From: Gemmobacter aquarius
GTDB lineage: Bacteria; Pseudomonadota; Alphaproteobacteria; Rhodobacterales; Rhodobacteraceae
Reading direction: 5' to 3'
Assembly (NCBI RefSeq): GCF_003060865.1
Contig: NZ_CP028918.1
Location: forward strand, 1,476,001-1,540,000
DNA length: 64,000 nucleotides
Positions 11,301 through 31,914 of the stretch are shown piece after piece. A model generated the notes under the pieces. The model did no database searches. It had not been told where the DNA came from and saw only the letters and a list, made by a program, of their open reading frames with translations. Each line of letters starts with the position of its first letter. Position 1 is the stretch's first letter. Made by a program: the position numbers and the translations under genes.

Positions 11301-11750
11301 ATGACCAGCTTCACCACCGACCGCATGCTCAACTTCGGCGATTGCGATATTTCCGGCACCGCCTATTACCCCGCCTACCTCAACATCCTGAACGGCGTGG
11401 TCGAGGAATTCTGGACCCATATCGGCTATCCGTGGCACGAGATCATCTGGAAGGAACGCTGGGGCACCCCCACCGTCCACCTGTCGTGCGACTTCTCGCG
11501 CCCTTCGTTTTTCGGCGACAGGCTGACCTTCCGCTTAAGCGTGCTCAAGGTCGGCAAATCCTCGGTCCGCATCCGCCACACCGTCCATTGCGGGGCCGAA
11601 GACCGCTGGTCGGGCGAACAGGTGCTTGCGGCAAGCTGGCTTGACAAACACACCTCGATGCCATGGCCTGACGATGTGAAAGCCAAGCTCGAAAGCTTCC
11701 TTGCCCCCGCCGACCCCGTCCCGCACATTCCGGTTCAGGCCCAGACGTAA
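11301..11750 (+). CDS. Hotdog-fold acyl-CoA thioesterase (4-hydroxybenzoyl-CoA thioesterase type)
   Basis: A 149-residue cytoplasmic thioesterase. The segment FGDCDISGTAYYPAYL matches the 4HBT active-site strand and helix, with the Asp in CDISG at the catalytic position. A second such gene lies at 31103. It is convergent with the ABC operon and ends 1 base from it. Aryl-CoA hydrolysis is likely by family; within this island it may recycle CoA from a dead-end aromatic thioester, but the substrate is inferred. Confidence 0.85.
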   Translation: MTSFTTDRMLNFGDCDISGTAYYPAYLNILNGVVEEFWTHIGYPWHEIIWKERWGTPTVHLSCDFSRPSFFGDRLTFRLSVLKVGKSSVRIRHTVHCGAEDRWSGEQVLAASWLDKHTSMPWPDDVKAKLESFLAPADPVPHIPVQAQT

Positions 11751-11751
11751 G

Positions 11752-12552
11752 CTAGGCCCAAACCTGATCGGGGTCGGGCAGGGGGATCGCATCCAGCAAT
11801 TCGCGCGTATAGGCGGCCTGCGGGTCTGCGAACAAATCCGCCGTAATGCGGTCTTCCACGATAACGCCCTGATGCAACACGATGGTCCGCTGGCACAGCC
11901 TGCGGATCACGCTCAGATCATGGCTGATAAAGGCCAGCGTCAGCCCCAGATCGGCCACCAGCCGTTCCAGCAGGTTCAACACCTGCGCCTGTGACGACAC
12001 GTCCAGCCCCGACACGATTTCATCGGCCAGAATGAAGTCCGGCTCCAGCGCAATCGCCCGCGCGATCCCCACCCGCTGCCGCTGCCCGCCCGAAAGTTCA
12101 TGCGGATAGCGCGCAGCAAACCCCTGCGGCAGCCCCACATGGTCCAACGCCCGCGCAACGCGGCCCGCCACATCGTCGAACTGATGCAGCCGCAACGGCT
12201 CGGCGATGATCGTGCCGACCCCGTGGCGCGGGTTCAAACTGCTCATCGGGTCTTGGAATATCATCTGGAACCGCCGCCGCAGCGGGCGCAAAGCCGACTC
12301 GTCCAGATGGGTAATATCCACCCCGTCGAACGAAACCCGCCCGCCCGAAGGCTCCAAAAGCCTGACCAGCACCCGCCCCAGCGTCGATTTCCCCGACCCC
12401 GACCCGCCGACGATCCCGACCACGGCACCCTTCGGGATCGTGAAACTCAACCCCTTCAGAATCTCCAAGCGCGGCGCTGCCCCCAGCAAGGGCTTGCGCG
12501 TCATATCCGCCAGCGACAGACGCAGGTTCTCGACCGTGTAAAGATCAGCCAT
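11752..12552 (-). CDS. Peptide-type ABC transporter ATP-binding protein (DppF/OppF-like)
   Basis: A 266-residue ATPase with Walker A GGSGSGKST, signature LSGGQRQRV, Walker B FILADEIVSGLD and the family's peptide-transport C-terminal end (AAYTRELLDAIP). It is the last gene of a leftward operon. Its ATG (12552) lies 8 bases inside the end of the preceding ATPase gene. It would drive the importer formed by the two permeases at 13408-15262 together with its partner ATPase. Confidence 0.93.
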   Translation of the reverse strand: MADLYTVENLRLSLADMTRKPLLGAAPRLEILKGLSFTIPKGAVVGIVGGSGSGKSTLGRVLVRLLEPSGGRVSFDGVDITHLDESALRPLRRRFQMIFQDPMSSLNPRHGVGTIIAEPLRLHQFDDVAGRVARALDHVGLPQGFAARYPHELSGGQRQRVGIARAIALEPDFILADEIVSGLDVSSQAQVLNLLERLVADLGLTLAFISHDLSVIRRLCQRTIVLHQGVIVEDRITADLFADPQAAYTRELLDAIPLPDPDQVWA

Positions 12553-13411
12553 GCGACCCCCCGTCAAAATCGGCCACTTCCGCCCGCACCGCCGCGATGA
12601 CCGCGTCAGGCACCGGCGTCAGGCTCGCCAAGGGATCGGTATATTTCGGTGTCGCAGCCAGCAGCGCCGCCGAATAGGCATGGCGCGGGGCGGCAAAGAA
12701 ATCGCGCACCCTTGCGTCCTCGACGACCATCCCGCCGTAAAGCACGCTCAAGCTCTGGCACACCTTGCTCACCACCCCCAGATCATGCGTCACGAACAAC
12801 AGCGCCGTGCCGTGCCGCGCCTGCATCCCCGCGATCAGCTTCAGGATCTGCTTTTGCACCGTCACATCCAGCGCGGTGGTGGGTTCATCCGCCACTATCA
12901 GCTTCGGCTCGGCCGCAAATGCGCTCGCGATCAAGATCCGCTGCCGCATTCCGCCCGAAAGCTCGTGCGGATAGCACCGCAACACCCGCTCCGGCTCGGC
13001 AATCTGCACCTCGGCCAGCAACTCCAGCGCCCGCGCCTCGGCCCGCCCGCGCTCCCAGCCCAGAATATCCACCAGCCGGTCGGTGATCTGCCCCCCGATC
13101 CGGCGCGAAGGGTTCAGCGCGGTCAACGGGTCTTGCGGGATCAGCGCCGCCGTCGCCCCGATCCGCCGCCGCCGTTCCGCGACCGGCAGCGCCAGCAAAT
13201 CCACCCCGTCGAGCCAGATTTCCCCGCCCGTCACCTGTACCGACTGCGGCAATATCCCCAAGACCGCCTTGCCGATCATCGACTTGCCGGCCCCGCTTTC
13301 GCCCACCAGCCCCCGCACCTCGCCCGCCGCAACGTCGAGTGACACCGCCCGCAACAGCGCAGGCCCGCCCTTGACCCGCGCCGACAACCCGCGCACCGAA
13401 AGAAAGCTCAT
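12545..13411 (-). CDS. Peptide-type ABC transporter ATP-binding protein (DppD/OppD-like)
   Basis: A 288-residue ATPase with Walker A GESGAGKSM (Met in place of the usual Thr/Ser after GKS), signature LSGGMRQRI and Walker B LIVADEPTTALD. The C-terminal oligopeptide-transport domain (RHAYSAALLAATPK) is present. The start at 13411 overlaps the permease stop as ATGA. The larger open frame running on to 14212 crosses the permease gene out of frame and is not real. Confidence 0.93.
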   Translation of the reverse strand: MSFLSVRGLSARVKGGPALLRAVSLDVAAGEVRGLVGESGAGKSMIGKAVLGILPQSVQVTGGEIWLDGVDLLALPVAERRRRIGATAALIPQDPLTALNPSRRIGGQITDRLVDILGWERGRAEARALELLAEVQIAEPERVLRCYPHELSGGMRQRILIASAFAAEPKLIVADEPTTALDVTVQKQILKLIAGMQARHGTALLFVTHDLGVVSKVCQSLSVLYGGMVVEDARVRDFFAAPRHAYSAALLAATPKYTDPLASLTPVPDAVIAAVRAEVADFDGGSHG

Positions 13412-14259
13412 CGCAGCACCGGATCGAAGCGGTCCTTCAACCCCTCGCCTAGTTGGGAAAACGCCAGCACCGTCAGGAACAAGGCGACCAGCGGGAACAC
13501 CAGCACCCACCATGCCTGATAGACCGATGTGCGCCCTTCGGAAATCATCCCCCCCCAGGTCGGGAAATCGGTGGAAATCGACAGGTTCACAAAGGACAGA
13601 ATGGCCTCGACGATCACGGCAATCCCCATCTCCAGCGTCAGCAGAACCACCACAGTCGGCAGCACATTGGGCACGATCTCGCGCCACATCACACCCAGCC
13701 GCCCCCGCCCCGCCACACGCGCCGAGGCCACATAATCCATCGCCCCTTGCGTCATCGCCTCGGCCCGCACCACCCGCGCAAAGCGCGTCCAGTCGATCAC
13801 CACGATGGCAAGGATGATCGACCAAAGCCCCGGCCCCAGCACCGCAATCAGCAGGATCGAAAACAGCACCGGCGGAAAGGCCATCCAGATGTCGATCAGA
13901 CGCGAAATCACCAGATCCACCCAGCCGCGCAGAAAACCCGCCATGACCCCCAGCACAGCCCCGATCAGACACGTCACCGTTCCTGCCACCAGCGCCACCC
14001 CCAGCGCAATCCGCGCGCCAAAGATGATGCGCGACAGCACATCGCGCCCCAGACTGTCGGTTCCCAGCAGGTACCCCGGTTCCGCCCCCGCCGCCCAGAA
14101 CGGCGGCAAGCGGCCCAGAAACAGATCCTGCGCCAAGGGGTCTTTCGGTGCCACCCATGGCGCAAAGACCGCCACCAGCACCAAAAGCCCCAGCCACCCC
14201 GCCGAAAGCCACAGGCGAACCCCCGCCCGCCGCTTCACCGCGCCCTTCCCGTCAAGCAT
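13408..14259 (-). CDS. Peptide-type ABC transporter permease (DppC-like)
   Basis: A 283-residue inner-membrane permease with an N-terminal membrane anchor (WLGLLVLVAVFAPWVAPKDP). The segment LLGTDSLGRDVLSRIIFGAR is diagnostic of DppC/OppC. Five further membrane helices follow, with an EAA-type loop around YVASARVAGRG. It overlaps both neighbours by 4-8 bases, so it belongs to one translated operon. Confidence 0.94.
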   Translation of the reverse strand: MLDGKGAVKRRAGVRLWLSAGWLGLLVLVAVFAPWVAPKDPLAQDLFLGRLPPFWAAGAEPGYLLGTDSLGRDVLSRIIFGARIALGVALVAGTVTCLIGAVLGVMAGFLRGWVDLVISRLIDIWMAFPPVLFSILLIAVLGPGLWSIILAIVVIDWTRFARVVRAEAMTQGAMDYVASARVAGRGRLGVMWREIVPNVLPTVVVLLTLEMGIAVIVEAILSFVNLSISTDFPTWGGMISEGRTSVYQAWWVLVFPLVALFLTVLAFSQLGEGLKDRFDPVLR

Positions 14260-15262
14260 GGCGCAACCTCGGGTTCAGTGCGGCATAAAGCAGGTCGACC
14301 ACCAGATTGACGCCGGTAAAGATCACCGCAAACAGGATGACGATCCCCTGTATCAACGGCAAATCGCGGTTGATCACGGCATCGATCGCCATATTCCCCA
14401 ACCCTTCATAGGAAAACAGCCGCTCGATGATCACAGTGCCCCCGATCAGAAAGGTGAACTGCACCCCCACCAGCGTCAGCGTGGGCAGCACGGCGTTGCG
14501 TAGCGCCTCGCGCAAGATGACATGGGTCTCGCCATAGCCCTTTGTGCGCGCAAGCGTCACGTAATCCAGATGCATCGTCTCTTTCAGGCTTTGCTTGAGC
14601 AATTGCCCGATGATCGCAGCCAGCGGAATGGCCAGCGCCAAAGCGGGCATCAACATATGGCTCACGATATCCAGCCACAGATCGAAGCGCAGCCGCAGCA
14701 GACTCTCGAACAGGTAGAAGTTGGTGCTGAACGGCAATTCCAGCGAAGGCGTCACCCGGCCCGAAATATGAAACACCGGCACCAGCACGCCAAACAGCAA
14801 GATCAGAACCAGCCCCCACAGGAAATCCGGCACCGATAGCGCCATGCCATTGGCGACATCGATCGCCCCCTCCACCCGCGTCCCGCGCCGCTTGGTCCCC
14901 ACCAGCGCCGCAAAACCGCCAATGATCACCGCCATCACCAGCGCCATGATCGAAAGCTCCAGCGTCGCAGGCAACCGCCCGAGAACCAGCCCCAGCACCG
15001 GCTGCCGCGTGGTGATCGAGGTGCCGAAATCCCCCTGCACCACCCCCGAAACCCAGATCAGGAATTGCTGCCAGATCGGCTTGTCCAACCCGTAAAGCGC
15101 GGTCAGTTGTGCTATATCCGCCTCCGTCGCCCCCGGAGGCAGCATCATGGCAATCGGATTGCCCGGCACCACGCGGATCACGAAGAACACGATGACCGCC
15201 ACCCCCGCCAGCGTCACCGCCGTCGTCGCCAGCCGCAAAAGAAGAACCCGAAAGACCTGCAT
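14252..15262 (-). CDS. Peptide-type ABC transporter permease (DppB-like)
   Basis: About 336 residues starting MQVFRVLLLRLATTAVTLAG, with six predicted membrane helices. The DppB segment VVPGNPIAMMLPPGATEADI and the loop TLARTKGYGETHVILREAL are present. An ATG three codons upstream (15271) is also possible; neither has a clear ribosome site, only G-rich sequence. It pairs with the DppC-like permease and overlaps it by 8 bases. Confidence 0.92.
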   Translation of the reverse strand: MQVFRVLLLRLATTAVTLAGVAVIVFFVIRVVPGNPIAMMLPPGATEADIAQLTALYGLDKPIWQQFLIWVSGVVQGDFGTSITTRQPVLGLVLGRLPATLELSIMALVMAVIIGGFAALVGTKRRGTRVEGAIDVANGMALSVPDFLWGLVLILLFGVLVPVFHISGRVTPSLELPFSTNFYLFESLLRLRFDLWLDIVSHMLMPALALAIPLAAIIGQLLKQSLKETMHLDYVTLARTKGYGETHVILREALRNAVLPTLTLVGVQFTFLIGGTVIIERLFSYEGLGNMAIDAVINRDLPLIQGIVILFAVIFTGVNLVVDLLYAALNPRLRHA

Positions 15263-15310
15263 CCACCCCATCCCCCCGCGCCAAGGCACAGGGCAGGGGC
15301 CTCGCCCCCT

Positions 15311-15363
15311 CATTTTCTGTCCTACAAATATCCCACGGGGGTGCGGGGGTGTGAAACCCCCGC
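15311..15363 (+). repeat. Composite intergenic repeat, copy C
   Basis: Within the 205 bases between the binding-protein gene and the DppB-like gene, the + strand reads TTTTCTGTCCT, then CAAATATCCCACGGGGGTG (15325-15343). A perfect hairpin GCGGGGGT/ACCCCCGC (15343-15363, loop GTGAA) follows. It is the same arrangement as the other copies. It lies inside a leftward operon and is therefore antisense to it in this reading. Confidence 0.7.
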
Positions 15364-15418
15364 TCCGCCGCCGACACAGGGCACCCCGCGTCACCCACGT
15401 TTCGGTCCCCATCGGGGG

Positions 15419-15445
15419 GTCCGGGGGGACGCAAGTCCCCCGGAC
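15419..15445 (-). terminator. GNRA-like capped hairpin after the binding-protein gene
   Basis: On the + strand GTCCGGGGGGAC (15419-15430) and GTCCCCCGGAC (15435-15445) pair as an 11-bp stem with one bulged G around the loop GCAA. It starts 22 bases past the binding-protein stop and precedes the permease genes of the same operon. As after the other ABC binding-protein gene, it probably lowers read-through or stabilises the upstream message. No T-run follows. Confidence 0.55.
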
Positions 15446-15467
15446 GTCTGCAAAAGGAACCGACCCG

Positions 15468-16991
15468 TCAGGCCCGCTTCATCAGATGCGGCAACAGGGC
15501 CCCGCTTGCATGGGGCGTCACCACAACCCCCGGCGCGTGCAGGATCGGCTGGACGTATTGCAGCAGCGGAATGACCAGCGCGTTCTCGGCGATGAACTTG
15601 TCCACGGCCTTCCAGCCCTCGATCCGCTTGGCCTCGTCGGCCTCGCCCCACAAAGGCCCGATCATGCCGATCAGATCCTCGCCGTCCCAGACCGAATGGG
15701 GCGACGGCCCGAACATCGCAAAGCCGGTCGAAGTGGTCGGATCGCCCACCGAATTGCCCCAGTTGTAGAACGCCGCAGGCGCCAACTGGTCCGCCGCGCG
15801 CAGCTCGTAGTGCTTGGCGATCTCGTAAACCTCGATCTCCGCCTCGATCCCGACCTTGCGCCACAGGCCCACAATGGCCTGCACCATCTCGTAATCCTTG
15901 GGCTTGAAACCCTTGGTGGTCTGGATCTTGAACTTTACCGGCTTGTCGACGCTGTAGCCCGAAGCCGCCAGCAACTCGACCGCCTTCTCGGGGGAATATT
16001 CCACAGTGATCGACGCATCATAGGCGTCGTATTCCGGCGTCTCGAGAGTGTCGATCTTGACGCCATAGCCCGACAGCAGCCGGTCGATGATCGTCTGCTT
16101 GTCCACCGCATGGGCTGCGGCTTTCCGGACGTTCGGGTCCAGCATCACGTCGATATCGTTCAGGAAAATCATCCCGATATCGGAAATGGGTGCTGCCACA
16201 CCGGCCAAGGGGCCGCCCTTCAGGCGGTCATATTCCTCATAGGGCATTTCCAGCGTGACATGGCTGTTGCCGCTTTCCACCTCGGCCACGCGCGCCGCCG
16301 CATCGGGCACGAACTTGATCGTCACCGTGTCGAAATCGGGCTTGCCACCCCAGTAATTCGCGTTCGCCTTCAACCGCACGAATGCGTTGCGCTCGAACTT
16401 TTCCACCATATAGGGGCCGGTCCCGATGGGGGCAGCCTCGAAGCCCTCGGCCCCGACCTTTTCGTAATAGGCTTTGGGCAGAACGTATCCGGTCAGGAAA
16501 TACATCCACTTGAAGATGGTGGGATCGAACTGCTTCACATCGGCCGTGACCGTGTTGCCTTCGACCACGAAATTGGTCAGCGATCCCCAGACAAAGTTGA
16601 TCGGGTTCCCCGTTTCGGGGTTCGCCGCCCGTTCCAGCGACCAAGCCACATCTTCCGCCGTAAAGGGCGACCCGTCGTGCCAGGTCACGCCTTCGCGCAC
16701 GGTCATCTTCACCTTGGTCCGGTCCTCGTTCCAGCCCCATTCGGTCAGCAACCCCGGCGCAGGCTTGAGGTCAGGCTGCTGCAAGATGAACTGGTCGAAC
16801 ACCGACTGGTAAAGCCCTTGGATCGTCGGGTTCACCGCACTCGGCCCCACGGTCGGGTCCCATGACGGGAGCGTAACGTTATAGGCGATCACCAATTCCT
16901 CGATGGCCTGCGCGCTTGCGGGCAGGCCAACCGCCCCCGCGGCCACACCCGCCGCCGAGATCTTGATCAGGCTTCTTCTGCTGAGTTTCAT
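15468..16991 (-). CDS. Peptide-type ABC transporter substrate-binding protein, Tat-exported
   Basis: A 507-residue periplasmic SBP family 5 protein. The N-terminus MKLSRRSLIKISAAG carries a twin-arginine motif (SRRSLIK, residues 4-10) and a typical AxA cleavage site. Family segments include the conserved GVTWHDGSPFTAEDV and GTGPYMVEKF. It heads the transporter part of the leftward operon, 43 bases after the FAD oxidoreductase gene. SBP5 proteins bind peptides but also nickel, sugars or small aromatic and amino compounds. The neighbouring catabolic genes suggest that it captures the island's substrate. Confidence 0.93.
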   Translation of the reverse strand: MKLSRRSLIKISAAGVAAGAVGLPASAQAIEELVIAYNVTLPSWDPTVGPSAVNPTIQGLYQSVFDQFILQQPDLKPAPGLLTEWGWNEDRTKVKMTVREGVTWHDGSPFTAEDVAWSLERAANPETGNPINFVWGSLTNFVVEGNTVTADVKQFDPTIFKWMYFLTGYVLPKAYYEKVGAEGFEAAPIGTGPYMVEKFERNAFVRLKANANYWGGKPDFDTVTIKFVPDAAARVAEVESGNSHVTLEMPYEEYDRLKGGPLAGVAAPISDIGMIFLNDIDVMLDPNVRKAAAHAVDKQTIIDRLLSGYGVKIDTLETPEYDAYDASITVEYSPEKAVELLAASGYSVDKPVKFKIQTTKGFKPKDYEMVQAIVGLWRKVGIEAEIEVYEIAKHYELRAADQLAPAAFYNWGNSVGDPTTSTGFAMFGPSPHSVWDGEDLIGMIGPLWGEADEAKRIEGWKAVDKFIAENALVIPLLQYVQPILHAPGVVVTPHASGALLPHLMKRA

Positions 16992-17034: not shown

Positions 17035-18603
17035 TCACGCACCGGCCAGACGTTGCGCCAAAAGATAACCCGGATTGGCCCCGGTTCCGGCCCCCGGCCA
17101 GACGGCGGCCCCCGTCATGTGCAGTCCCGCCAGCGGGGTCGATCCATCGGCATGGCCGCGCATCGGGCGAAACAGGAAATGCTGGCCCAGATGGTGGCTG
17201 CCGCAAACCTGATCGCCACCGACAAGGTTCGGGTTCTCGGCCTGCAATTGCACAGGGGTAACAACACTTTGCCCGATGATCTTCGCGCGGGTTCCGGGCG
17301 CATGGGCTTCCAGAATATCCAAGACCCGCTCCGCAAACGGCCCCGCCGCCCCGTCCCAATCGCGCGCCCCGATCTGACCCTTGGCATCGCCCGCGATCAC
17401 GCCCGGCGCCATCCGCACCTGCACCCACAGCGTGTGCTTGCCCGCAGGCGCACGGGTGGCATCGACCACCGTCGGCTGCCCGACCACCAGTATCGGCTCG
17501 TCCGGCAACAGCCCCGCGCTGGCTTGGCTGTAGGTCCGCGCCATCTTGTCCAAACTCGGCGCGATATGCACGTAAGCATAGCCCCGCAGTGCCGCCCCGG
17601 CCCGCCATTCCGGCAGGTCCGACAGCGCAAGATGGATCATCATCGTCCCCGGCGCATGCCGGAACGCCGCCAACCCCTTGTCGAAAGCGGGCGTCACCGC
17701 CCCCGTCAGCCGCGACAGGTTCTGCGGCGCGACCCCTGCGATCACGGCGCGTCCTGCCATCACCCGCCGCCCGTCCGCCAGTTCCACACCCGTGACCCGA
17801 TCCCCCTCGCGCAGCACCCGTGCCACCGGCGCATCGCACTCGACCACGCCGCCCCGCGCCCGGATCGCCGCCACCAGCGCGTTGATGATCGTATCCGCGC
17901 CGCCCTGGCCCAGCACCATGCCGAAGGCCTGACCCGCCATGCCTTCCAGATAGGGAAAAATCGCACCCCCCGCGATGTCGGGCGCATAATCCAGATGCAT
18001 CCCCCATGCGCCCAGCATCGCCTTGGTGCGGGGGGAGGCAAAGGTTTCGTCCAGCCATGCCCGGGGCGAGGCGAGCAGGAAGCGGCCCATGTCCAGCGTT
18101 CCCGCCACACCCTTGGCGCGAAGCATTTTGAATATGAAATATCCAAGCGCACGCATCCGCATCGGGCTTCCGAGCAGGCCGAACAGATGCGGCGCCTCGT
18201 CCCCGAACCCGTCGCAAAGCCGCGCCCAGGTCGCCGCGTCATCCTGCGAAAGGCGGGCAAGGTTGGCCATCGTCTCGGCGCGGTCGGTCGAAACCCCGCA
18301 CCACGACCCGTCCGGAAAACTCGACGCAAAGGGCCGCGCCACCGGCACGAAGGCGCAGCCGTGCCGCTGCAATTCGGCCCCGTATTGCTTGAAAAACGCG
18401 CTTCCTGCGAACAGTGACAGGTTCATCGCCGCCCAGTCGTGGCGAAAGCCGGGCAGGGTGTATTCGCCGGTCTTGACCGCACCGCCCGCCGTTGCCGCCC
18501 CCTCGAACACGCCCACGCGCCAGCCTTTGGCCGACAGGTGCAGGGCAGCGGCCAACGTGTTGTGGCCCGCCCCGATCATCACCGCGTCAAAGCTCGATTT
18601 CAT
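17035..18603 (-). CDS. Phytoene-desaturase-like FAD oxidoreductase 1 (PYROXD2 type)
   Basis: A 522-residue flavoprotein. The dinucleotide-binding motif is at the N-terminus (DAVMIGAGHNTLAAALHLSA), followed by EGAATAGGAVKTGEYTLPGF. The C-terminal FAD segment is GAGTGANPGYLLAQRLAG. It is paralogous to the gene at 19588: both share an LPGFxHD segment and NLVGGD followed by FLFRP. The start at 18603 begins the fold; the ATG at 18645 would add 14 residues. It leads the leftward transporter operon and diverges from the isatin-hydrolase-like gene. The substrate is unknown; oxidation of an indole-derived ring is a context guess. Confidence 0.85.
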   Translation of the reverse strand: MKSSFDAVMIGAGHNTLAAALHLSAKGWRVGVFEGAATAGGAVKTGEYTLPGFRHDWAAMNLSLFAGSAFFKQYGAELQRHGCAFVPVARPFASSFPDGSWCGVSTDRAETMANLARLSQDDAATWARLCDGFGDEAPHLFGLLGSPMRMRALGYFIFKMLRAKGVAGTLDMGRFLLASPRAWLDETFASPRTKAMLGAWGMHLDYAPDIAGGAIFPYLEGMAGQAFGMVLGQGGADTIINALVAAIRARGGVVECDAPVARVLREGDRVTGVELADGRRVMAGRAVIAGVAPQNLSRLTGAVTPAFDKGLAAFRHAPGTMMIHLALSDLPEWRAGAALRGYAYVHIAPSLDKMARTYSQASAGLLPDEPILVVGQPTVVDATRAPAGKHTLWVQVRMAPGVIAGDAKGQIGARDWDGAAGPFAERVLDILEAHAPGTRAKIIGQSVVTPVQLQAENPNLVGGDQVCGSHHLGQHFLFRPMRGHADGSTPLAGLHMTGAAVWPGAGTGANPGYLLAQRLAGA

Positions 18604-18792
18604 GCAGCGCCTCGTCTGGTTGCCGAAGGATATTTGCAAATGCATTTAAATCTGTCTAGCATGATTCATCAGCCCCGAACGCAGCGGCCCGCAGTCTAAG
18701 CCGGCAGCCAAACCCGTCAGGGCGCGATGCATAACAGAATGCACGGGTGATGCAGACAGATGCCTCACACCGCGACCTAGAGGGAGATGGAA
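18604..18792. promoter_or_regulatory. Divergent promoter region with AT-rich dyads (candidate MarR site)
   Basis: These 189 bases separate the two divergent catabolic operons. Near the left end lies a run of nested palindromes: ATTTGCAAAT (18632-18641), ATGCAT (18640-18645) and ATTTAAAT (18644-18651). MarR-family operators are often AT-rich dyads of this size, and a MarR gene is in the rightward operon. GGATATTTG (18628-18636) also matches the core of the recurrent box, but without its hairpins. The remaining bases show no clear feature. Confidence 0.45.
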
Positions 18793-21153: not shown

Positions 21154-21620
21154 ACGACGAAGCGCCCCGCAAACCCCGCCTTGGTGAAATCGGCCTGTCG
21201 AATTACGCGCCTTACCTGATGAACCGCATCATGGGCCGCTACAACGCGTCCTTGCGCGACGAAATGGCCGACCTTGGCCTGACCACGCCAAAGATGCGTG
21301 TCCTTGCCGTGCTGTCGGTGATCGAGGCCCCGCTGATCCGCGATCTTGCGGTCCTGACCGTCATCGAACAATCCACGCTTTCGCGCGCGCTCGACCAGCT
21401 TGCCACTGATGGCATGGTCCGGCGCGAGGCTGATCCCGCCGACAGCCGCGCCACCCGCATCCATCTGACGAAAGCGGGCCGCACCACCTTCGAATCGCTC
21501 TGGCCCCGCATGGCCGATGCCCACGCCCGCATGTTCAAAGGCATAGACGAAGCCGAGCGCCGCGCCTTTGTCGGCACCTTGCAAAAGATGCTGGCCAATA
21601 TCCGCAAGCACGAGATCTAG
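21150..21620 (+). CDS. MarR family transcriptional regulator 1
   Basis: A 156-residue winged-helix regulator. The recognition region is VLTVIEQSTLSRALDQLATDG and the wing is RREADPADSRATRIHLTKAG. The start at 21150 overlaps the preceding stop as ATGA; longer in-frame sequence belongs to the oxidoreductase gene in another frame. Being inside the operon, it likely senses an aromatic or CoA-ester intermediate and controls the divergent promoter at 18604-18792. Confidence 0.92.
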   Translation: MNDEAPRKPRLGEIGLSNYAPYLMNRIMGRYNASLRDEMADLGLTTPKMRVLAVLSVIEAPLIRDLAVLTVIEQSTLSRALDQLATDGMVRREADPADSRATRIHLTKAGRTTFESLWPRMADAHARMFKGIDEAERRAFVGTLQKMLANIRKHEI

Positions 21621-23778: not shown

Positions 23779-25319
23779 CCCTGCAAGACAGCTTTACCCC
23801 GAAACCCGACCCCGCCTTGGGCGGCATCATCAAACTTGCCATCCTCGCCGTCGGCGGGCAGGGCGGGGGCGTGCTGACCGGCTGGATCGAAGCCGTCGCC
23901 CGCTCTTCCGGCTACGCGGCGCAGGCCACCTCCGTCGCGGGTGTGTCGCAGCGCACGGGGGCCACGGTCTATTACGTCGAAATGGCGCCGATGCTCGCCA
24001 CCGGAGCCATGCCCGTCTTCTCGCTGCAACCCGCCGCAGGCGACGTCGACATCATGATCACCGCCGAAATGATGGAGGCGGGGCGTTCGATCATCCGCGG
24101 CTTCGTCACTCCCGACCGCACCACGCTCATCACCTCGACCCACCGCGCCCTCGCGGTCTCGGAAAAGATGGTCCCCGGCGACGGCATCGCCGACAGCGCC
24201 GAAGTCCTCGCCGCCGCCGAAATCGCCGCCCGCCGCGTCATCGCCGCCGATTTCGACGCGCTTGCCATCGCCCAAGGCTCCGTCATCTCCGCCTCCCTCC
24301 TCGGCGCACTCGCCGCCTCCGCAACGCTGCCCTTCCCGCGCGGGGCCTTCGAGGCCGCGATCCGCGCAGGCGGCAAAGGCCTTGAGGCCTCGCTCCGCGC
24401 CTTTGCCGCAGGCTTTGACGCCGCCACCACACCGCAGGCCCAAAACGCCGAAGCCGCCGCCAAACCCGCTCCCGAACCCCGAGGCCCCGCAAACCTTCTG
24501 GCCGAATGGCAACGGCTCGAGTCCCGCGCCAAAGCCATGCCCGCCCCCGTCGCCGAACTCGCCCTTCCGGGCCTGCAAAAGGTCGTGGGCTTCCAATCCC
24601 TCGCATATGGCGCCGACTACCTGACGCGGCTGGAAACGGTCCTCGCCACCGACACCCCCGCCAAATCCTTCGCCCTGTCGCGTGAAGCCGCCAAATACAT
24701 CGCCAACGCCATGGCTTACGACGATGTGATCCGCGTGGCCGACCTGAAAACACGTGGCACCCGTTTCGACCGCATCACCCGCGAGATGGGCGTCAAGGAC
24801 CGGAACGTCATGCACCTTACCGAATTCTTCCACCCTAGGGCCGAGGAAATCGCCGGAATGCTTCCCGCCCGCCTTGGTGCCCGAATCCAGTCCAGCCCCA
24901 AAGCCATGGCCCGCCTGACAAGGTGGTTCGACAAGGGCCGTCGCCTGCGTACCGACAGCCTGCCCGCCTTCCTGACGCTCTACCTGATCGGCGGCTTGCG
25001 CTTCTGGCGCCCCCGCACGCTGCGCCACGCGCAGGAAATGGCCCATCTCGAAAACTGGCTCGCCCTCGCCCTGACCACGGCCGCCCGAAACTACGACCTT
25101 GCCGTCGAAATCGTCAAATGCCGCCGCCTTGTGAAAGGCTACTCCGACACCCACGCGCGCGGCCTGTCGAAATTCGACCGCGTGCTCGATGCCATCGCCC
25201 TGATCGCCCACCGCGACGACGCCCCCGACTGGGCCCGCCGCCTGCGCGAAGCCGCCCTGAAAGACGAAGAAGGCAAGGCCCTGAACGGCGCAATCGCAAC
25301 GATCAAATCCTTCGCCTGA
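23775..25319 (+). CDS. Indolepyruvate oxidoreductase beta-type subunit with long C-terminal domain
   Basis: A 514-residue partner of the alpha subunit. Residues about 18-205 form the gamma/beta domain typical of 2-oxoacid oxidoreductases (LAILAVGGQGGGVLTGWIEA; GVSQRTGATVYYVEM). After an Ala/Pro linker near 220-240, a helical C-terminal domain of about 270 residues follows, as in the long bacterial IorB-like subfamily; classical IorB is only about 200 residues. The start at 23775 overlaps the alpha stop (ATGA). The gene ends the operon and is followed by a terminator-like composite repeat. Confidence 0.86.
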   Translation: MTLQDSFTPKPDPALGGIIKLAILAVGGQGGGVLTGWIEAVARSSGYAAQATSVAGVSQRTGATVYYVEMAPMLATGAMPVFSLQPAAGDVDIMITAEMMEAGRSIIRGFVTPDRTTLITSTHRALAVSEKMVPGDGIADSAEVLAAAEIAARRVIAADFDALAIAQGSVISASLLGALAASATLPFPRGAFEAAIRAGGKGLEASLRAFAAGFDAATTPQAQNAEAAAKPAPEPRGPANLLAEWQRLESRAKAMPAPVAELALPGLQKVVGFQSLAYGADYLTRLETVLATDTPAKSFALSREAAKYIANAMAYDDVIRVADLKTRGTRFDRITREMGVKDRNVMHLTEFFHPRAEEIAGMLPARLGARIQSSPKAMARLTRWFDKGRRLRTDSLPAFLTLYLIGGLRFWRPRTLRHAQEMAHLENWLALALTTAARNYDLAVEIVKCRRLVKGYSDTHARGLSKFDRVLDAIALIAHRDDAPDWARRLREAALKDEEGKALNGAIATIKSFA

Positions 25320-25397: not shown

Positions 25398-25433
25398 CCC
25401 CCGCCATCCCCCGCGACTGCCTGTCACGGAATA

Positions 25434-25520: not shown

Positions 25521-27806
25521 ATGAAGATTCTCTGCCTCGGCGGCGGCCCCGCCGGACTTTACTTCGCCATCTCGATGAAACTGCGCGATCCCTCGCATCA
25601 GATCACCGTTCTGGAACGCAACCGCGCCAACGACACCTTCGGCTGGGGCGTGGTGCTGTCGGACGATGCCTTGGGCCGGATGCAAAAGAACGATCCCGTT
25701 TCCACCCAGTCCATCCGCGACCACTTCGCCTATTGGGACGACATCGCCGTTGTGCATGACGGCGTGCGCAACGTCTCGGGCGGGCATGGCTTTGCGGGCA
25801 TCGGGCGCAAGCAAATGCTGATCCTGTTGCAAGCCCGCGCCCGCGAACTCGGCGTCGATCTGCAATTCGAGACCGAATTCAAGACCGCCGAGGAATACCG
25901 CCGCGTCTATGACATCGTGGTCGCCTGCGACGGCATCAACTCTGCCGTCCGCCGCGAATATGAAAGCACCTTCCAGCCCGACATCGACATGCGCCTGTGC
26001 AAATTCGTCTGGCTCGGCACGCAAGCGAAATTCGACGACGCCTTCACCTTCATCTTCGAGAACACCGAACACGGCTGGGTCTGGGCGCACGCCTACCAGT
26101 TCGACGCCACCACTGCGACCTTCATCGTCGAATGCACGCAGGAAACGTGGGATCGCTGGGGCTTCGACGCCATGTCCAAGGAAGACACGGTCGAGACCTG
26201 CCGCAAGATCTTCGCCAGCCACCTTGGCGGGCATGACCTCATTTCGAACGCCGCCCACCTGCGCGGATCGGCGGTCTGGATGAACTTCCCCCGCGTTGTC
26301 TGCAACACGTGGTTCCATGAAAACGTCGTCCTGATGGGTGACGCCGCCGCAACGGGCCACTTCTCGATCGGTTCCGGCACCCGCCTCGCGCTCGACAGTG
26401 CCATCGCACTTGCCGAATACCTCCACTCCGAACCGACGATCCAAACCGCCTTCCGGCGCTATCAGGACGAACGCCGTGTCGAAGTGCTGCGCCTGCAATC
26501 GGCCGCCCGCAATTCGCTCGAATGGTTCGAACAGGTCGAACGCTACCTCGACATGCCGCCCACGCAATTCGCCTATTCGCTGCTCACCCGCAGCCAGCGC
26601 ATTTCCCACGAAAACCTGCGCCTGCGCGACCCTGCATGGCTGCGTCAGGCCGAGGATTGGTTCGCCGAGCAAGCGGGTGGCCCGAAAGGCCGCGCGCCGA
26701 TGTTCGCGCCCTTCACCTTGCGCGACATGGCCTTGCAAAACCGCATCGTCGTCTCGCCCATGGCGCAATACAAGGCGGTCGACGGCTGCCCGACCGACTG
26801 GCACTTCGTCCATTACGCCGAACGCGCCAAGGGCGGTGCTGGCCTCGTCTATACCGAAATGACCTGCACCAGCGCGCAGGGCCGCATCACCCCCGGCTGC
26901 CCCGGCCTTTACGCGCCCGAACACGAAGCCGCATGGAAACGCCTGACCGATTTCGTCCATACTGAGACCCCTGCAAAAATCTGCTGCCAGATCGGCCACG
27001 CAGGCCGCAAGGCCAGCACCCAAGTGGGATGGGAGGAAGGCGACGCCCCCCTGACATCCGGCAACTGGGAGATCATCGCGCCGTCCGCGATTCCGTGGTC
27101 GCCCAAAAACGCCACCCCGCGCGAGATGACCCGTGCCGATATGGAGGCCGTCACGCTCGAATTCGTGGCCGCCACCGAAATGGCCAAGCGGGCAGGCTTT
27201 GACATGGTCGAGTTGCATGCCGCCCACGGTTACCTCGTGTCGTCCTTCATCTCGCCCGTCTCGAACCACCGCACCGACGCCTACGGCGGCAGCCTCGAGA
27301 ACCGCATGCGCTGGCCGCTCGAAGTCCTTCGCGCAATGCGCTCGGCATGGGGAAGTGAAAAACCCCTGTCTGTCCGCATCTCGGCGACCGACTGGATGGG
27401 CGACGAAGGCGTCACCCCCGCCGAAGCCGTCGAAATCGCCAAGATGTTCGCCGCCAACGGTGCCGATATCATCGACGTCTCGGCTGGCCAGACCAGCACC
27501 GATGCCAAACCCGTCTACGGCCGCATGTTCCAGACCCCGTTTTCCGACCGCATCCGAAATGAGGCCGGCATCGCCACCATGGCCGTCGGCAACATCACCG
27601 AACCTGACCATGTGAACTCCATCCTCCTCGCAGGGCGGGCCGATCTGGTTTGCCTCGCGCGGCCCCATCTTGCCGATCCCTACTGGACGCTTCACGCCGC
27701 CGCCCGTATGGGCGATACCGGAACCGACTGGCCGCTGCCCTACCTTGCCGGGCGCGACCAGCTTTACCGGTTGCAGGCAAAAACGACCGAGGTGCTGCGG
27801 GCATGA
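25521..27806 (+). CDS. 2-Aminobenzoyl-CoA monooxygenase/reductase (salicylyl-CoA 5-hydroxylase/oxidoreductase family)
   Basis: A 761-residue two-domain flavoprotein. Residues 1 to about 385 are a class A FAD monooxygenase ([38 protein letters not shown]). Residues about 395-761 are an Old Yellow Enzyme-type barrel ([42 protein letters not shown]). This fusion matches 2-aminobenzoyl-CoA monooxygenase/reductase, which hydroxylates and then reduces the ring of the CoA thioester to a non-aromatic product. The automatic name is often salicylyl-CoA 5-hydroxylase. It begins after CAAAAGGATACAGGGCC and overlaps the SDR gene by ATGA. Confidence 0.92.
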
Positions 27807-28546
27807 CCGATCTGGCAGGCAAACGCGTGTTGGTGACGGGCGGAGGCTCCGGTGTCGGGGCCGACCTCGCCCGTGGCTTCGCCGCAAAAGGGGCCGAAGT
27901 GGTGATCTGCGGCCGCCGCATGGCCGCGTTGGAAGCGGTAGCCACCAGCGTCGGCGGCATCCGCGCCTTGCCCTGTGATGTGACGGATGAGGCCTCGGTC
28001 AACGCCCTGTTCAAGGCAGCTGGCCCGCTCGACATCGTCATCGCCAATGCGGGCCAAGCCGACAGCGCCACGCTGGCCAAGACCACGCTCGACCAATGGA
28101 ACGCCATGATCGCGGCCAACCTGACAGGGGTCTTCCTGACCTTCCGCGCCGGATTGCAGCAATTCAACGGTTGGGGGAGGCTCATTGCGGTCGCCTCGAC
28201 CGCGGGCGTCAAGGGGTATGCGAAAGTCGCCCCCTATGCCGCCGCCAAACATGGCGTCATCGGCCTGACCCGCTCCGTCGCCCTCGAAATCGCCCGCAAA
28301 CCGATCACTGCCAACGCGATCTGCCCCGGTTTCCTCGACACCGAAATGACCGACCACTCCATCCGCGTCATTTCCGAAAAGACCGGACGCACCGAAGCCG
28401 AGGCCCGCGCCGCCCTCGAATCGCTCAACCCGCAAAACCGCCTGTTCCGCCCTGACGAGGTCACCGCCACCGCGCTCTGGCTTTGCGGTGCAGGCTCGGA
28501 CGGGGTGAACGGCCAAGCCATTACCCTGTCGGGGGGCGAGGTATGA
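27803..28546 (+). CDS. SDR family oxidoreductase
   Basis: A 247-residue NAD(P)-dependent dehydrogenase. It has the glycine-rich motif VTGGGSGVG (11-19), NAG (82-84), the active-site Ser132 region ([10 protein letters not shown]) and Y145-AAA-K149. Length and motifs are classical. It is cotranslated with the monooxygenase gene (ATGA) and the following MarR gene (ATGA). It probably oxidises or reduces a hydroxy/keto group on the alicyclic CoA intermediate, a beta-oxidation-like step, by context only. Confidence 0.9.
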
Positions 28547-29001
28547 CCGCATCCGACCCCCAAGCGCATGACCCGCTGTCGAAACGCCGCCTGAAACTGT
28601 GGATCCGGCTTTTGGGTGTCACCCGCCAAGCCGAAGGGTCTTTGCGCGAGTTCCTCCGCCTGCGCCATGAGACGACCCTGCCGCGCTTCGATGTCATGGC
28701 CGCGCTCTACCGCCGCCGCGACGGGGTGACGATGTCCGAACTCAGCCGCATGCTTCTGGTGTCGAACGGCAATGCAACCACCGTGGTGGACCGGCTGGAA
28801 AAAGACGGCCTCGTGCGCCGCACGCAATCGGAAACCGACCGCCGCACCGTTTTTGTCGCCCTGACCCCGGAGGGGCTGGCGAGTTTCGAGACGCTGGCGA
28901 CAGGCCACGAGGCCGAGGTGAACCAGCTTTTCGCCAGCCTGACCGAAAGCGACCTCGACACGCTGACCGATATCTTCAAACGCATGGGAAGCCCGAAATG
29001 A
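28543..29001 (+). CDS. MarR family transcriptional regulator 2
   Basis: A 152-residue winged-helix protein. The recognition helix is in [20 protein letters not shown] and the wing in [20 protein letters not shown]. It overlaps both neighbours by 4 bases, so it is produced with the catabolic enzymes. MarR repressors in aromatic-CoA operons often respond to the CoA thioester. This one would most simply control its own operon through the AT-rich dyad at 25434-25451. Confidence 0.92.
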
Positions 29002-29810
29002 CCGCGCTTGCGACCCTGAAACCGCAGCATTTCCTGTGGGAGGTGGCAGATCGCATCGGCACGGTGCGGCTGAACCGCCCCGACCGCAAGAATCCGCTGA
29101 CCTTTGAATCCTACGCCGAACTGCGCGACCTGTTCCGCGATCTGGTCTATGCGTCCGATGTCGATGTGGTGGTCTTTGCCTCGAACGGGGGTAATTTCTG
29201 CTCGGGCGGCGATGTGCATGACATCATCGGCCCGCTGATCGGGCTGCCGATGAAGGAGTTGCTCGCCTTTACCCGCATGACCGGCGATCTGGTCAAAGCC
29301 ATGATCGGCTGCGGCAAACCCATCATCGCCGCCGTCGACGGCGTGGCGGTGGGGGCAGGGGCGATCATCGCCATGGCATCCGACCTGCGCCTTGCCACGC
29401 CCGCCGCCAAATGCGCCTTCCTCTTCACCCGCGTCGGCCTTGCCGGTTGCGACATGGGCGCCTGTGCCATGCTCCCGCGCATCATCGGGCAGGGCAGGGC
29501 GGCCGAACTGCTCTACACCGGCCGCACGATGCGGGCCGAGGAAGGGGAACGCTGGGGCTTCTGGAACGCGCTGCACGCGCCCGAGGCGCTGGAGGCCGAA
29601 GCGATGGCGCTGGCGCGGTCCTTGGCGGCTGGCCCGACCTTTGCCCATTCCATGACCAAGACCCAGCTCAACCACGAATGGAACATGGGGCTGGAACAGG
29701 CGATCGAGGCCGAGGCGCAGGCGCAGGCGATCTGCATGCAGACCCGCGATTTCGAACGCGCCTACCGTGCCTTTGTCGCCAAGGAAAAACCGGTCTTTGC
29801 GGGCGACTGA
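28998..29810 (+). CDS. Enoyl-CoA hydratase/isomerase family protein
   Basis: A 270-residue crotonase-fold protein. The oxyanion-hole segment [12 protein letters not shown] (66-77) and [20 protein letters not shown] are clear. By my alignment to mitochondrial hydratase, the first catalytic Glu position (the E of QPE) is Arg145 (FTRVGL), while the second Glu is kept as E170 ([10 protein letters not shown]). It may therefore be an isomerase, thioester hydrolase or ring-cleaving hydrolase rather than a simple hydratase. It closes a run of ATGA-coupled genes; 159 bases separate it from the dehydrogenase gene. Confidence 0.85.
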
Positions 29811-29820
29811 CCGACCAGAT

Positions 29821-29898: not shown

Positions 29899-29948
29899 AC
29901 CCCCATTCGGATTTATTCTGTATCGTCACCCTGTTCCCCCGCCGTCGC

Positions 29949-29972
29949 ATGGATATTTGTAGACAGAAAATG
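29949..29972 (-). repeat. Composite intergenic repeat box, copy F, overlapping the dehydrogenase start
   Basis: The + strand reads GGATATTTGTAGACAGAAAATG, the reverse complement of the recurrent TTTTCTGTCnnCAAATATCC box. Read leftward it is followed by the G/C hairpin at 29876-29898. The ATG at its right end is the proposed start of the acyl-CoA dehydrogenase gene, so a repeat copy supplies the leader and start of a gene. Confidence 0.65.
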
Positions 29973-31106
29973 AATGATCAGACCTATCAGCACTGGCCGT
30001 TCTTCGAGCCGCAGCACCGCGATCTTGCCGCGGCCCTTGAGGCTTGGTGCGCGGCAAACCTGCCCGTTGAGCATGGCGATACCGATGCCGCCTGCCGCGC
30101 CTTGGTTGCCGCCTTGGGGCAGGGCGGCTGGCTGCGCCATTCGGGGGCGGGGATGGGCGAACGGCTGGATGTCCGCAGCCTGTGCCTCATCCGCGAGATT
30201 TTGGCCCGCCACGACCCCTTGGCCGATTTCGCCTTTGCCATGCAGGGCCTTGGCATGGGCCCCGTGTCGCTGTTCGGCACGACCGACCAGCGCGCATGGC
30301 TTGACCGCACCCGCACCGGCACCGCGATTTCGGCTTTTGCGCTGACCGAACCGGGGTCGGGGTCCGACGTGGCCGCCACCGCCAGCACCGCGCGCAAGGT
30401 GCAGGGCGGCTGGGTGCTCGACGGCGAGAAGACGTGGATTTCCAATGGCGGCATCGCCGATGTCTACGTCATCTTTGCCCGCACCGGCGAGGCGCCGGGC
30501 GCACGCGGCCTTTCCGCCTTTCTGCTGCCAGCCGACACCCCCGGCTTGCAGGTCGCCGAACGCCTGCACACCATCGCCCCCCATCCCCTCGCACGGCTTA
30601 CCCTGTCCGGCGTCGAACTGCCCGACAGCGCCCTGATCGGCACGACAGGCGCAGGCTTCAAGATCGCCATGTCCACGCTCGACGTCTTCCGCCCCACCGT
30701 GGGTGCCGCCGCACTTGGCATGGCGCGGCGCGCGCTTGGCGAAAGCCTGACCCGCACCACCACCCGCAAGATCGGCGGCGAACCCCTCGCCTCGATGCAG
30801 ATGGTACAAGGCCACCTTGCCGACATGGCGCTGAAAATCGACGCGGCCGCCCTTTTGGTCTATCGCGCCGCATGGACCAAGGACATGGGGGCGGACCGCA
30901 TCACCCGCGAAGCCGCCATGGCGAAACTTTACGCCACCGAAGCCGCGCAAGAGGTGATCGACATGGCCGTGCAACTGCATGGCGGCGACGGCGTGCGGTC
31001 AGGCGCAACCGTCGAGTCGCTTTACCGCGACATCCGCGCGCTGCGTATCTACGAAGGTGCCTCGGACGTGCAACGCATCGTCATCGCGCGAAGCCTGATG
31101 CCATGA
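29970..31106 (+). CDS. Acyl-CoA dehydrogenase family protein
   Basis: A 378-residue FAD enzyme. [18 protein letters not shown] and [16 protein letters not shown] are the two conserved ACAD segments. The C-terminal [18 protein letters not shown] holds the usual catalytic Glu. The ATG at 29970 lies in a recurrent repeat and has no good ribosome site (AGACAGAAA), so it may be weakly translated or start elsewhere. It is followed by a thioesterase gene with ATGA overlap. It likely desaturates an alicyclic or ring-opened CoA intermediate made upstream. Confidence 0.9.
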
Positions 31107-31513
31107 CCTATTCCCGCCAGATCCGTGTCGAGTTCAACCACTGCGACCCCGCGGGTATCGTCTTTTACCCGCGCTATTACGAAATGACCAACTCGACCGT
31201 CGAAAACTTCTTCCGCGACCAGATCGGCTGGCCCTTCGAGGCGATGATGGCGCAAGGCATCGGCGTGCCCACCGTGCGGATCGAAACCGATTTCCGCGCC
31301 CCCTCGCGCCTTGGCGACCTGCTGGACTGGACGCTGGACCTGACCCGCCTTGGCCATGCCTCGGCCACGCTGCGTCTGACCGCCACCTGCGGCGGGCAAG
31401 AGCGGCTTGTCGTCACGCTTACGCTCGTCTGGCTTGGCCCCGACCACCGCCCCGCCCCTTGGCCCGAAACCGTCCGCCCCCGCCTTGCCGCGCATCTTCA
31501 GGAGACGCCATGA
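31103..31513 (+). CDS. Hotdog-fold acyl-CoA thioesterase 2 (4HBT type)
   Basis: A 136-residue thioesterase whose [20 protein letters not shown] matches the 4-hydroxybenzoyl-CoA thioesterase active site, with the catalytic Asp in CDPAG. It overlaps both neighbours by ATGA, so it is coupled to the dehydrogenase and Rid genes. It is related to the thioesterase at 11301 but is not a close duplicate. It may release a late acid product or clear a dead-end aryl-CoA. Confidence 0.9.
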
Positions 31514-31914
31514 CCCTCTCTCCGCATCAGGTCTTGCACCCCGCCCATTGGAAAGCTGCCCGCGGCTACGCCAACGGCATGGCGGCGACGGGGCGCATGG
31601 TCTTTACCGGCGGCATCATCGGCTGGAACGCCGCGCAGGAATTCGAGACCGACGATTTCGCGCAGCAGGCGGGCCAAGCCCTGCGCTCTATCGTCGAGGT
31701 GCTGGCCGAAGCGGGTGCACGCCCCGAACATCTGGTGCGGCTGACATGGTATGTCACCGACAAGGCCGAATACCTCGCTTCGCTCAAGGCGCTTGGCCAG
31801 CAGTACCGCACCCATATCGGCGCGCATTACCCCGCCATGGCGCTGGTGCAGGTCGTGGCGCTGGTGGAAGACCGCGCCAAGGTAGAGATCGAGGCGACGG
31901 CGGTGATTCCGTAA
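31510..31914 (+). CDS. Rid (YjgF/YER057c/UK114) family protein lacking the catalytic arginine
   Basis: A 134-residue protein of the RidA fold (GRMVFTGGIIGWNAAQEF; RLTWYVTDKAEYL; VEIEATAVIP). In canonical RidA enamine/imine deaminases an Arg sits in the PARS-type motif before the last strand. Here the motif reads YPAMALVQVVAL, with Met110 at the Arg position. It therefore resembles the Rid4-7 subfamilies, which lack the archetypal activity. Being last in an operon whose central product is an enamine, it may still bind or hydrolyse that compound in a different way. Confidence 0.88.
   Translation: MTLSPHQVLHPAHWKAARGYANGMAATGRMVFTGGIIGWNAAQEFETDDFAQQAGQALRSIVEVLAEAGARPEHLVRLTWYVTDKAEYLASLKALGQQYRTHIGAHYPAMALVQVVALVEDRAKVEIEATAVIP

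Follow-up and report, generated by a model that had tools for sequence, protein, structure and literature searches.

A candidate catabolic hub from isatin to 2-aminobenzoyl-CoA around isatin hydrolase and IorAB in Gemmobacter aquarius

The 2-aminobenzoyl-coenzyme A (CoA) pathway, with its 2-aminobenzoate-CoA ligase, is known from Azoarcus evansii. A cluster for this pathway in indole degradation is cited in a 2018 review, which does not settle whether indole degradation truly passes through isatin or which cluster metabolizes anthranilate (PMC6221969). The iad loci, marked by the IorA/IorB-type genes iadA and iadB, lead to anthranilate, with isatin and isatinic acid as intermediates (PMC9613470). 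A compound of the formula C8H7NO3, which is the formula given for isatinic acid (PMC8383072), accumulated strongly only in strains overexpressing the whole iadC-K2 region (PMC12633357, a 2025 preprint); from its name, we read this region as leaving out iadA and iadB. The roles that the preprint gives fall within the range from iadC to iadK2, and the terms iadA and iadB are absent from its main text. The available parts of PMC9613470 and PMC12633357 assign no reaction to iadA/iadB, and no proposal that IorAB acts on isatinate was found in the open-licence literature. The metal motif and assays of homologous isatin hydrolases are given in PMC6117287. All of these sources are cited from the portions of their text that were available. 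Here, an island of isatin hydrolase, IorAB-like and 2-aminobenzoyl-CoA monooxygenase genes was analyzed in a 64,000-bp stretch of the 4.2-Mb genome of Gemmobacter aquarius (G000:C1:1476001-1540000, referred to as the window).

The island is probably a catabolic hub in which isatin is converted to isatinate and then, by IorAB, to 2-aminobenzoyl-CoA, with different inlets in different genomes and with the CoA ligase as a separate branch. Isatin hydrolase would open isatin to isatinate (2-aminobenzoylformate), and IorAB would convert isatinate and CoA to 2-aminobenzoyl-CoA by oxidative decarboxylation. The monooxygenase/reductase, a short-chain dehydrogenase/reductase (SDR), a crotonase, an acyl-CoA dehydrogenase and a Rid protein would degrade this ester, and thioesterases would free CoA from any surplus of it. 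We infer the IorAB reaction, the passage of its product on to the monooxygenase and what the thioesterases do. The inlets would vary among IadCDE-like oxygenases (auxin), SmoAB-like enzymes (indole), CrtO/Opp genes and a kynureninase-like enzyme. Such a hub offers a testable reaction for iadA/iadB, the markers of auxin-degradation loci, and bears on both of the questions left open in PMC6221969.

Isatin hydrolase and IorAB

Comparison of the window hydrolase with isatin hydrolase B from Labrenzia (4j0n) revealed 197 identical residues among 261 aligned (473 bits). The alignment showed that the metal motif HxG[T/A]HxDxPxH and the catalytic Asp-His-His are retained, as is the aromatic isatin cage (W65, W67, W86, and F211). 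Where LaIHA has Gln219 and BaKynB has the second-metal Glu173, the window protein has Ala. It did not reach the cut-off of the kynurenine formamidase family TIGR03035 (27.9 bits; cut-off, 223.05). Mn-dependent hydrolysis of isatin to isatinate by this protein would be the surest step of the pathway, resting on published enzymes; the assays in print are of homologs.

Homologs were counted in 248 genomes of the same family as the host (family sample). Isatin hydrolase was found in 50 of them (E <= 1e-60, a count that takes in seven genomes with only a 44 to 55% identical type), and all 50 also encode IorA. IorA was present in 52 of the 248 genomes at >=60% identity, a threshold chosen once the identities were known, which excludes seven genomes with only 52 to 54% homologs (Fisher, 1.5e-50; the Fisher tests count each genome as independent, and the genomes are nearly all from different genera). 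The original prediction had treated isatin hydrolase and IorAB as one unit, and this pairing bears it out. The co-occurrence survey that it had proposed also tied the pair to the 2-aminobenzoyl-CoA enzyme: the monooxygenase, counted at >=60% identity (which excludes G055 and G139, with 48 to 49%), was present in 46 of the 52 IorA-positive genomes and in 38 of the 196 others.

Oxygenases that could supply isatin followed IorA as well. Their labels in relatives (IadC, IadD, IadE, and SmoA) were given from domains and gene order. An IadD-like Rieske oxygenase of the auxin/iad kind (E <= 1e-100) occurred in 21 of the 248 genomes, all with IorA. A SmoA-like gene of the styrene monooxygenase type, a kind of enzyme known to oxidize indole, occurred in 10 genomes (E <= 1e-80), 9 of which also have IorA; the remaining genome, G166, has a completeness of 71%. 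Neither gene was found in 27 of the 52 IorA-positive genomes, the host included, which has no IadD-like and no SmoA-like match at these thresholds. IadCDE and SmoA were rejected as the source of isatin in the host, which has no close match to either, and the suggestion that indole-3-acetate or indole is the starting compound is not supported there.

A tree of 61 IorA proteins placed those from IadCDE loci, from loci with a fused hydrolase and from CrtO/Opp loci interleaved in one 50-row clade (95/89; the bootstrap is not fully settled), with nine rows as the outgroup (100/100). The window IorA shares this clade with the IorA of the iad-like loci of the family, as known from domains and gene order. 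A single IorA clade accompanies inlets of three kinds. Because IorA is swapped among inlets in this way, it should act on a product that they share. The two inlets for which a substrate is likely converge on isatin, and IorAB is best explained as acting on the next compound, isatinate. The bridge from isatinate to 2-aminobenzoyl-CoA, the core of the original prediction, thus has strong genomic support, although it is still a matter of inference.

The family name suggests another role, in which IorAB is an indolepyruvate oxidoreductase of tryptophan or auxin metabolism that merely neighbors isatin hydrolase. The window IorA does match the alpha subunit family of indolepyruvate ferredoxin oxidoreductase (TIGR03336) in part, but at 284.7 bits it stays below the cut-off of 650.9. 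The strict pairing with isatin hydrolase (50/50) and with auxin- and indole-type oxygenases, routes not known to give indolepyruvate, likewise makes this role highly improbable. The window IorB passes the PRK08312 family NF006179 (669.9 bits; cut-off, 348).

Two further sets of IorA were seen. L097 to L105 form a separate group with about 51 to 54% identity to the window IorA, and some of them have 4HBT thioesterase-like genes close by; other genes nearby are presumably TRAP transporters, and the group is perhaps another arylglyoxylate oxidoreductase. In L095 and L096 (63 and 62% identity), a thioesterase-like gene and a MarR gene lie directly behind IorB.

The genes up to IorB are arranged around a promoter near 18.65 kb that drives two divergent operons. 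The leftward operon encodes a CrtO-like flavoprotein and an Opp-type ATP-binding cassette (ABC) importer consisting of a solute-binding protein, two permeases and two ATPases (11752-16991 overall). The rightward operon encodes isatin hydrolase, a second CrtO-like flavoprotein, MarR1, IorA, and IorB.

11301..11750, plus strand: 4HBT thioesterase thioA (PF13279, 57.7 bits); adjoins MarR1-IorAB in L059, L061, and L067
11752..12552, minus strand: ABC ATPase, OppF type
12545..13411, minus strand: ABC ATPase, OppD type (PF00005, 91.5 bits)
13408..14259, minus strand: ABC permease, OppC type (PF00528, 82.1 bits; OppC_N, 25.4 bits)
14252..15412, minus strand: ABC permease, OppB type, start uncertain
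15468..16991, minus strand: Opp/Dpp-type solute-binding protein
17035..18603, minus strand: CrtO/CrtI-like flavin adenine dinucleotide (FAD) oxidoreductase 1 (CrtO1), with the operator just upstream of its start
18629..18659: putative conserved operator (31-bp motif) in the divergent promoter
18787..19584, plus strand: isatin hydrolase, B type (4j0n match)
19588..21153, plus strand: CrtO/CrtI-like FAD oxidoreductase 2 (CrtO2)
21150..21620, plus strand: MarR regulator 1, MarR1 (PF12802, 42.2 bits; best PDB match 3cjn)
21631..23778, plus strand: IorA-like thiamine pyrophosphate/iron-sulfur subunit, proposed isatinate:CoA oxidoreductase alpha
23775..25319, plus strand: IorB-like subunit with DUF6537

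Conservation of this arrangement was followed in a second sample of 80 named loci around isatin hydrolase, the best 80 of 453 relatives and thus biased toward close kin. They are mostly from Rhodobacteraceae, and many are metagenome assembled; isolates include Tabrizicola, Gemmobacter, Rhodobacter, and Pararhodobacter. Among the 53 of these loci that span at least 18 kb, IorA was present in 52 and CrtO1, CrtO2, and oppB in 48 each, a recurrence that argues against a chance arrangement. The genes listed in the original prediction (hydrolase, IorAB, monooxygenase, beta-oxidation-like enzymes, two thioesterases, two MarR regulators, and ABC importer) were all found where it had placed them; the two CrtO-like flavoproteins had not been named in it.

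Analysis of 52 aligned CrtO1-isatin hydrolase promoters (the window and 51 named loci) revealed the nearly invariant 31-bp motif, with 27 to 31 matches out of 31. Its 15-base core, searched with two mismatches allowed, precedes isatin hydrolase in 76 of the 80 named loci and did not occur in ten mononucleotide shuffles of the window. In the family sample, the core was found in 29 of 61 loci: 22 times no more than 350 bases ahead of isatin hydrolase, 5 times before MarR1, and twice elsewhere (L077 and L095). Before MarR1-IorAB (L055, L061, L064, L067, and L082), it faces thioA (L061 and L067), IadC (L082), or the monooxygenase (L055). The position of the predicted operator suggests that MarR1 binds it. 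Among PDB entries, MarR1 matched 3cjn with 184 bits and 3cdh, a MarR reported to bind auxin, with 59 bits. The pairing of hydrolase and IorA, the co-occurrence of inlets, the interleaved IorA clade and the common operator together support the hub.

CrtO1 and CrtO2 are about 35% identical to each other and accompany isatin hydrolase in 48 of the 53 long named loci. Against the PDB, the pair matched only phytoene dehydrogenase, weakly (E, 6.7e-5), and an oxidoreductase. A luciferase-like monooxygenase lies near the island in 28 of the 80 named loci; the host copy (88% identical) is located some 68 kb ahead of the window, with other genes as neighbors. In L243 (9020-10785), the host luciferase-like gene has a MarR-like neighbor, a pair also seen near IorB in some relatives, and the surrounding genes are, we assume, for methylated-amine metabolism.

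The 2-aminobenzoyl-CoA operon and the distant ligase

The monooxygenase/reductase operon begins 201 bp past iorB and ends with the Rid gene at 31914.

25521..27806, plus strand: flavoprotein of the 2-aminobenzoyl-CoA monooxygenase/reductase type
27803..28546, plus strand: SDR dehydrogenase
28543..29001, plus strand: MarR regulator 2
28998..29810, plus strand: crotonase-family protein (NF006107, 480.6 bits; cut-off, 330)
29949..31106, plus strand: acyl-CoA dehydrogenase
31103..31513, plus strand: 4HBT thioesterase (PF13279, 36.7 bits)
31510..31914, plus strand: Rid-family protein, operon end; a ligase gene comes next in many relatives

The monooxygenase passes NF006101, whose family name is salicylyl-CoA 5-hydroxylase/oxidoreductase (1280.7 bits; cut-off, 1078). 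As to its substrate, 2-aminobenzoyl-CoA or salicylyl-CoA, the genes met in its context in relatives are those for tryptophan dioxygenase, a true kynureninase and the ligase. The operon in relatives runs from the monooxygenase through SDR, MarR, crotonase, and acyl-CoA dehydrogenase, often with a thioesterase and Rid, to a ligase at or near the end. A benzoate-CoA-ligase-like gene was present in 83 of the 248 genomes and in 80 of the 84 that carry the monooxygenase, lying no more than 15 kb from it in 67 of the 84.

None of the 14 AMP-binding (PF00501) matches of the host genome lies in the window. The original prediction, that no CoA ligase is present, therefore holds for the island and fails for the genome: the ligase lies at G000:C1:2792471-2794057, 1.29 Mb from the monooxygenase (318 kb in the congener G104), and the host was rejected as a ligase-free genome. 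Its best match among 106 families is the benzoate-CoA ligase TIGR02262 (362.5 bits, under the cut-off of 375.25). Nor is the further claim that no ligase is needed supported, given its occurrence in 80 of 84 genomes. The four monooxygenase genomes without a ligase match were not accepted as true losses, since G119 has a gene start at a contig end and the operons of G102 and G212 are cut by contig ends. The sole remaining candidate is G138, rated 100% complete, in which the usual type of ligase was not detected; a tryptophan dioxygenase gene stands in its place, and the contig ends about 0.8 kb past Rid. This dioxygenase gene (L206, 14297-15133; 386.6 bits, cut-off, 390.7) lies between the acyl-CoA dehydrogenase and Rid genes. 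The tryptophan 2,3-dioxygenase gene of the host (G000:C1:1163206-1164005; L231 and L232) was matched in two reading frames, as if frameshifted.

The frequency of the ligase raises an alternative, in which isatinate would be converted to anthranilate, by IorAB with a thioesterase or by another enzyme, and an adenosine triphosphate (ATP)-dependent ligase would then form 2-aminobenzoyl-CoA, so that IorAB and the monooxygenase are not directly linked. The ligase is kept in 43 of the 46 genomes with both IorA and the monooxygenase, the host included, and in 11 of 12 named genomes picked for a monooxygenase or kynureninase-like gene near IorAB. Its frequent proximity to the monooxygenase (67/84), the thioesterase genes near IorAB in some loci and anthranilate as the reported end product of iad loci also fit this route. 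Yet the ligase was about equally common without IorA (37 of the 38 genomes with the monooxygenase alone) and hence shows no tie to isatin; that a genome has it speaks neither for nor against a direct step from isatinate. It also has partners of its own. In G193, it adjoins genes for tryptophan dioxygenase (379 bits; cut-off, 390.7) and a true kynureninase (282.1 bits; cut-off, 246.4), and in G228 it adjoins a tryptophan dioxygenase gene. These neighbors suggest that the ligase serves anthranilate from kynurenine, a second inlet; in the host, the distant ligase would feed 2-aminobenzoyl-CoA from anthranilate of the kynurenine route. Moreover, an ester made, cleaved and remade would waste ATP, and the anthranilate route is judged rather unlikely. 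The original prediction had counted a ligase in all homologous loci as evidence against itself; the ligase was found in nearly all of the genomes with the monooxygenase (80/84; 43/46 with IorA), which comes close to that case, yet its neighbors point to a separate anthranilate inlet.

Several further observations weigh against the hub as proposed. The iadC-K2 region was reported to be sufficient for anthranilate formation (PMC12633357, in its available text); a strict need for IorAB is therefore doubtful, as the step can go another way. Two IorA-positive genomes have no isatin hydrolase match, G155 (where the contig is cut) and G229, and six of the 52 have no monooxygenase at >=60% identity, although two of the six have a 48 to 49% homolog. 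Of the 46 genomes that have both IorA and the monooxygenase, just 9 have the two genes no more than 25 kb apart. The operator core is missing from 32 of the 61 family loci, the three fusion loci among them. Within the window, 18629 is the one place where it was found, and neither the monooxygenase nor the left group of genes, ahead of thioA, is preceded by it. Finally, a profile search found no solved relative of IorA at E <= 0.001, and its pocket is not readable.

The left module and its kynureninase-like enzyme

The left edge of the island was placed at about 7.1 kb, ahead of the region covered by the original prediction, with a module of five genes at 7146-11027.

7146..7946, plus strand: SBP_bac_3 amino-acid-type ABC solute-binding protein, first gene of the module (PF00497, 118 bits)
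7998..8441, plus strand: SRPBCC-like protein (PF10604, 20 bits, below the cut-off of 27.4)
8438..9214, plus strand: D-glutamate cyclase family protein (PF07286, 164.8 bits)
9211..9885, plus strand: ABC transporter permease (PF00528, 89.4 bits)
9909..11027, plus strand: kynureninase-like pyridoxal phosphate (PLP) enzyme, proposed dioxindolylalanine retro-aldolase

The module was counted as part of the island because its five homologs are clustered in L073, L079, and L237 (in a slightly different order in L079). The SRPBCC-like and D-glutamate cyclase family genes (7998-9214) accompany the kynureninase-like gene in these three loci.

The kynureninase-like gene was found in 33 of the 248 genomes, 31 of them with IorA (Fisher, 2.9e-23; exceptions, G070 and G228). 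Ten genomes have it as an in-frame fusion with isatin hydrolase; the fusion directly precedes IorAB in L080 and L083, and thioA lies in between in L079. A search with the PLP part of one fusion against 5.8 billion proteins revealed fusion length in 114 of the best 120 relatives. In the fused hydrolase domains, the aromatic isatin pocket is kept, and the formamidase second-metal Glu is replaced by Ala in 113 of 114 (one has a gap). Since the fused hydrolase keeps the isatin pocket, the PLP enzyme should yield isatin.

The closest solved structures of the window protein are kynureninases (1qz9, 88.6 bits), but it does not reach the cut-off of the kynureninase family TIGR01814 (74.3 bits; cut-off, 246.4). 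It was aligned with the 120 best relatives of the fusion's PLP part (the matches listed, from at most 8000 candidates scored). Lysine K205 and arginine R349 were invariant in all 121 sequences; we take them to be the PLP lysine and the carboxylate-site residue. The kynureninase His and Tyr positions were Gln and Leu in 121/121, and the Asp position was mostly Leu, Ile or Val (Asn in the window protein); presumably, these three positions serve kynureninase catalysis.

We tentatively propose that the kynureninase-like enzyme cleaves dioxindolyl-L-alanine (3-hydroxy-2-oxo-tryptophan) to isatin and L-alanine and that the left module is for the salvage of oxidized tryptophan; this is possible rather than probable. 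An importer would bring in dioxindolyl-L-alanine, the PLP enzyme would split it by retro-aldol cleavage, and the released isatin would pass to isatin hydrolase, often fused, and then through IorAB to 2-aminobenzoyl-CoA. Isatin in the host may thus come from damaged tryptophan and not from a plant hormone. Bond formation in the reverse direction by PLP enzymes has been described: with aminotransferases, L-alanine became linked to isatin through the beta carbon, and gamma-hydroxy amino acids are products of UstD and KynU (PMC13397446, in its available text). No report of a catabolic dioxindolylalanine cleavage was found in the open-licence literature. If the proposed step is true, it would be a dedicated bacterial path for a tryptophan oxidation product that bypasses kynurenine, and the enzyme would be a naturally occurring retro-aldolase with a kynureninase fold.

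The fusion and the left module could instead carry out kynurenine chemistry, with the hydrolase domain as N-formylkynurenine formamidase, the PLP domain as kynureninase, and anthranilate passed to the ligase. The hydrolase shares its fold superfamily with kynurenine formamidase, and the PLP domain is closest to kynureninases. Two genomes have a kynureninase-like gene without an IorA match: G070 and G228, where the gene precedes monooxygenase, ligase and dioxygenase genes. Against this stand the low formamidase score of the window hydrolase (27.9 of 223 bits) and the retained isatin pocket, with Ala for the second-metal Glu, in the fused domains. The replaced His and Tyr and kynureninase scores of 74.3 (window) and 53.4 (G228), versus 282.1 for the true enzyme in G193, point the same way. 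IorAB, present in 31 of the 33 genomes, would also be left without a task, and kynurenine chemistry is considered unlikely.

Comparison with known systems

The window hydrolase has the metal motif and the pocket residues in common with isatin hydrolase B from Labrenzia aggregata (4j0n; PMC6117287, available text). No clear difference was seen between the two, and some relatives of the window carry the hydrolase fused to a PLP domain. Kynureninases (1qz9 and 3e9k) resemble the kynureninase-like enzyme over most of its length, in the PLP lysine, the carboxylate-site arginine and the C-terminal domain; the window enzyme differs in its score under the family cut-off and in the replaced His, Tyr, and Asp positions.

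With respect to iif/ipo indole degradation (PMC12538310, available text), some relatives have a styrene-monooxygenase-type gene, a flavin reductase and an SDR adjoining the island, whereas the host has no close homolog of the styrene-monooxygenase-type gene. The 2-aminobenzoyl-CoA pathway shares the monooxygenase/reductase and the beta-oxidation-like genes, and many relatives end this operon with a ligase; the window operon, in contrast, directly follows iorB and has no terminal ligase.

The island also resembles the iad loci of Variovorax, Bradyrhizobium, and Achromobacter, which have IorA/IorB-type genes, two MarR regulators and a route through isatin and isatinic acid (PMC9613470 and PMC12633357, available text). 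In these loci, IadI, an isatin-hydrolase-family enzyme annotated as kynurenine formamidase, is the counterpart of the window hydrolase. Within the family sample, L067 and L059 encode an IorA with 79 and 80% identity to that of the window, beside Rieske oxygenase and reductase genes called IadCDE. The host differs in having no close match to an IadCDE-type oxygenase, and its MarR1 is nearer to 3cjn than to 3cdh, the one reported to bind auxin. Attached to its hub are CrtO-like and Opp genes, a kynureninase-like module, and a 2-aminobenzoyl-CoA operon.

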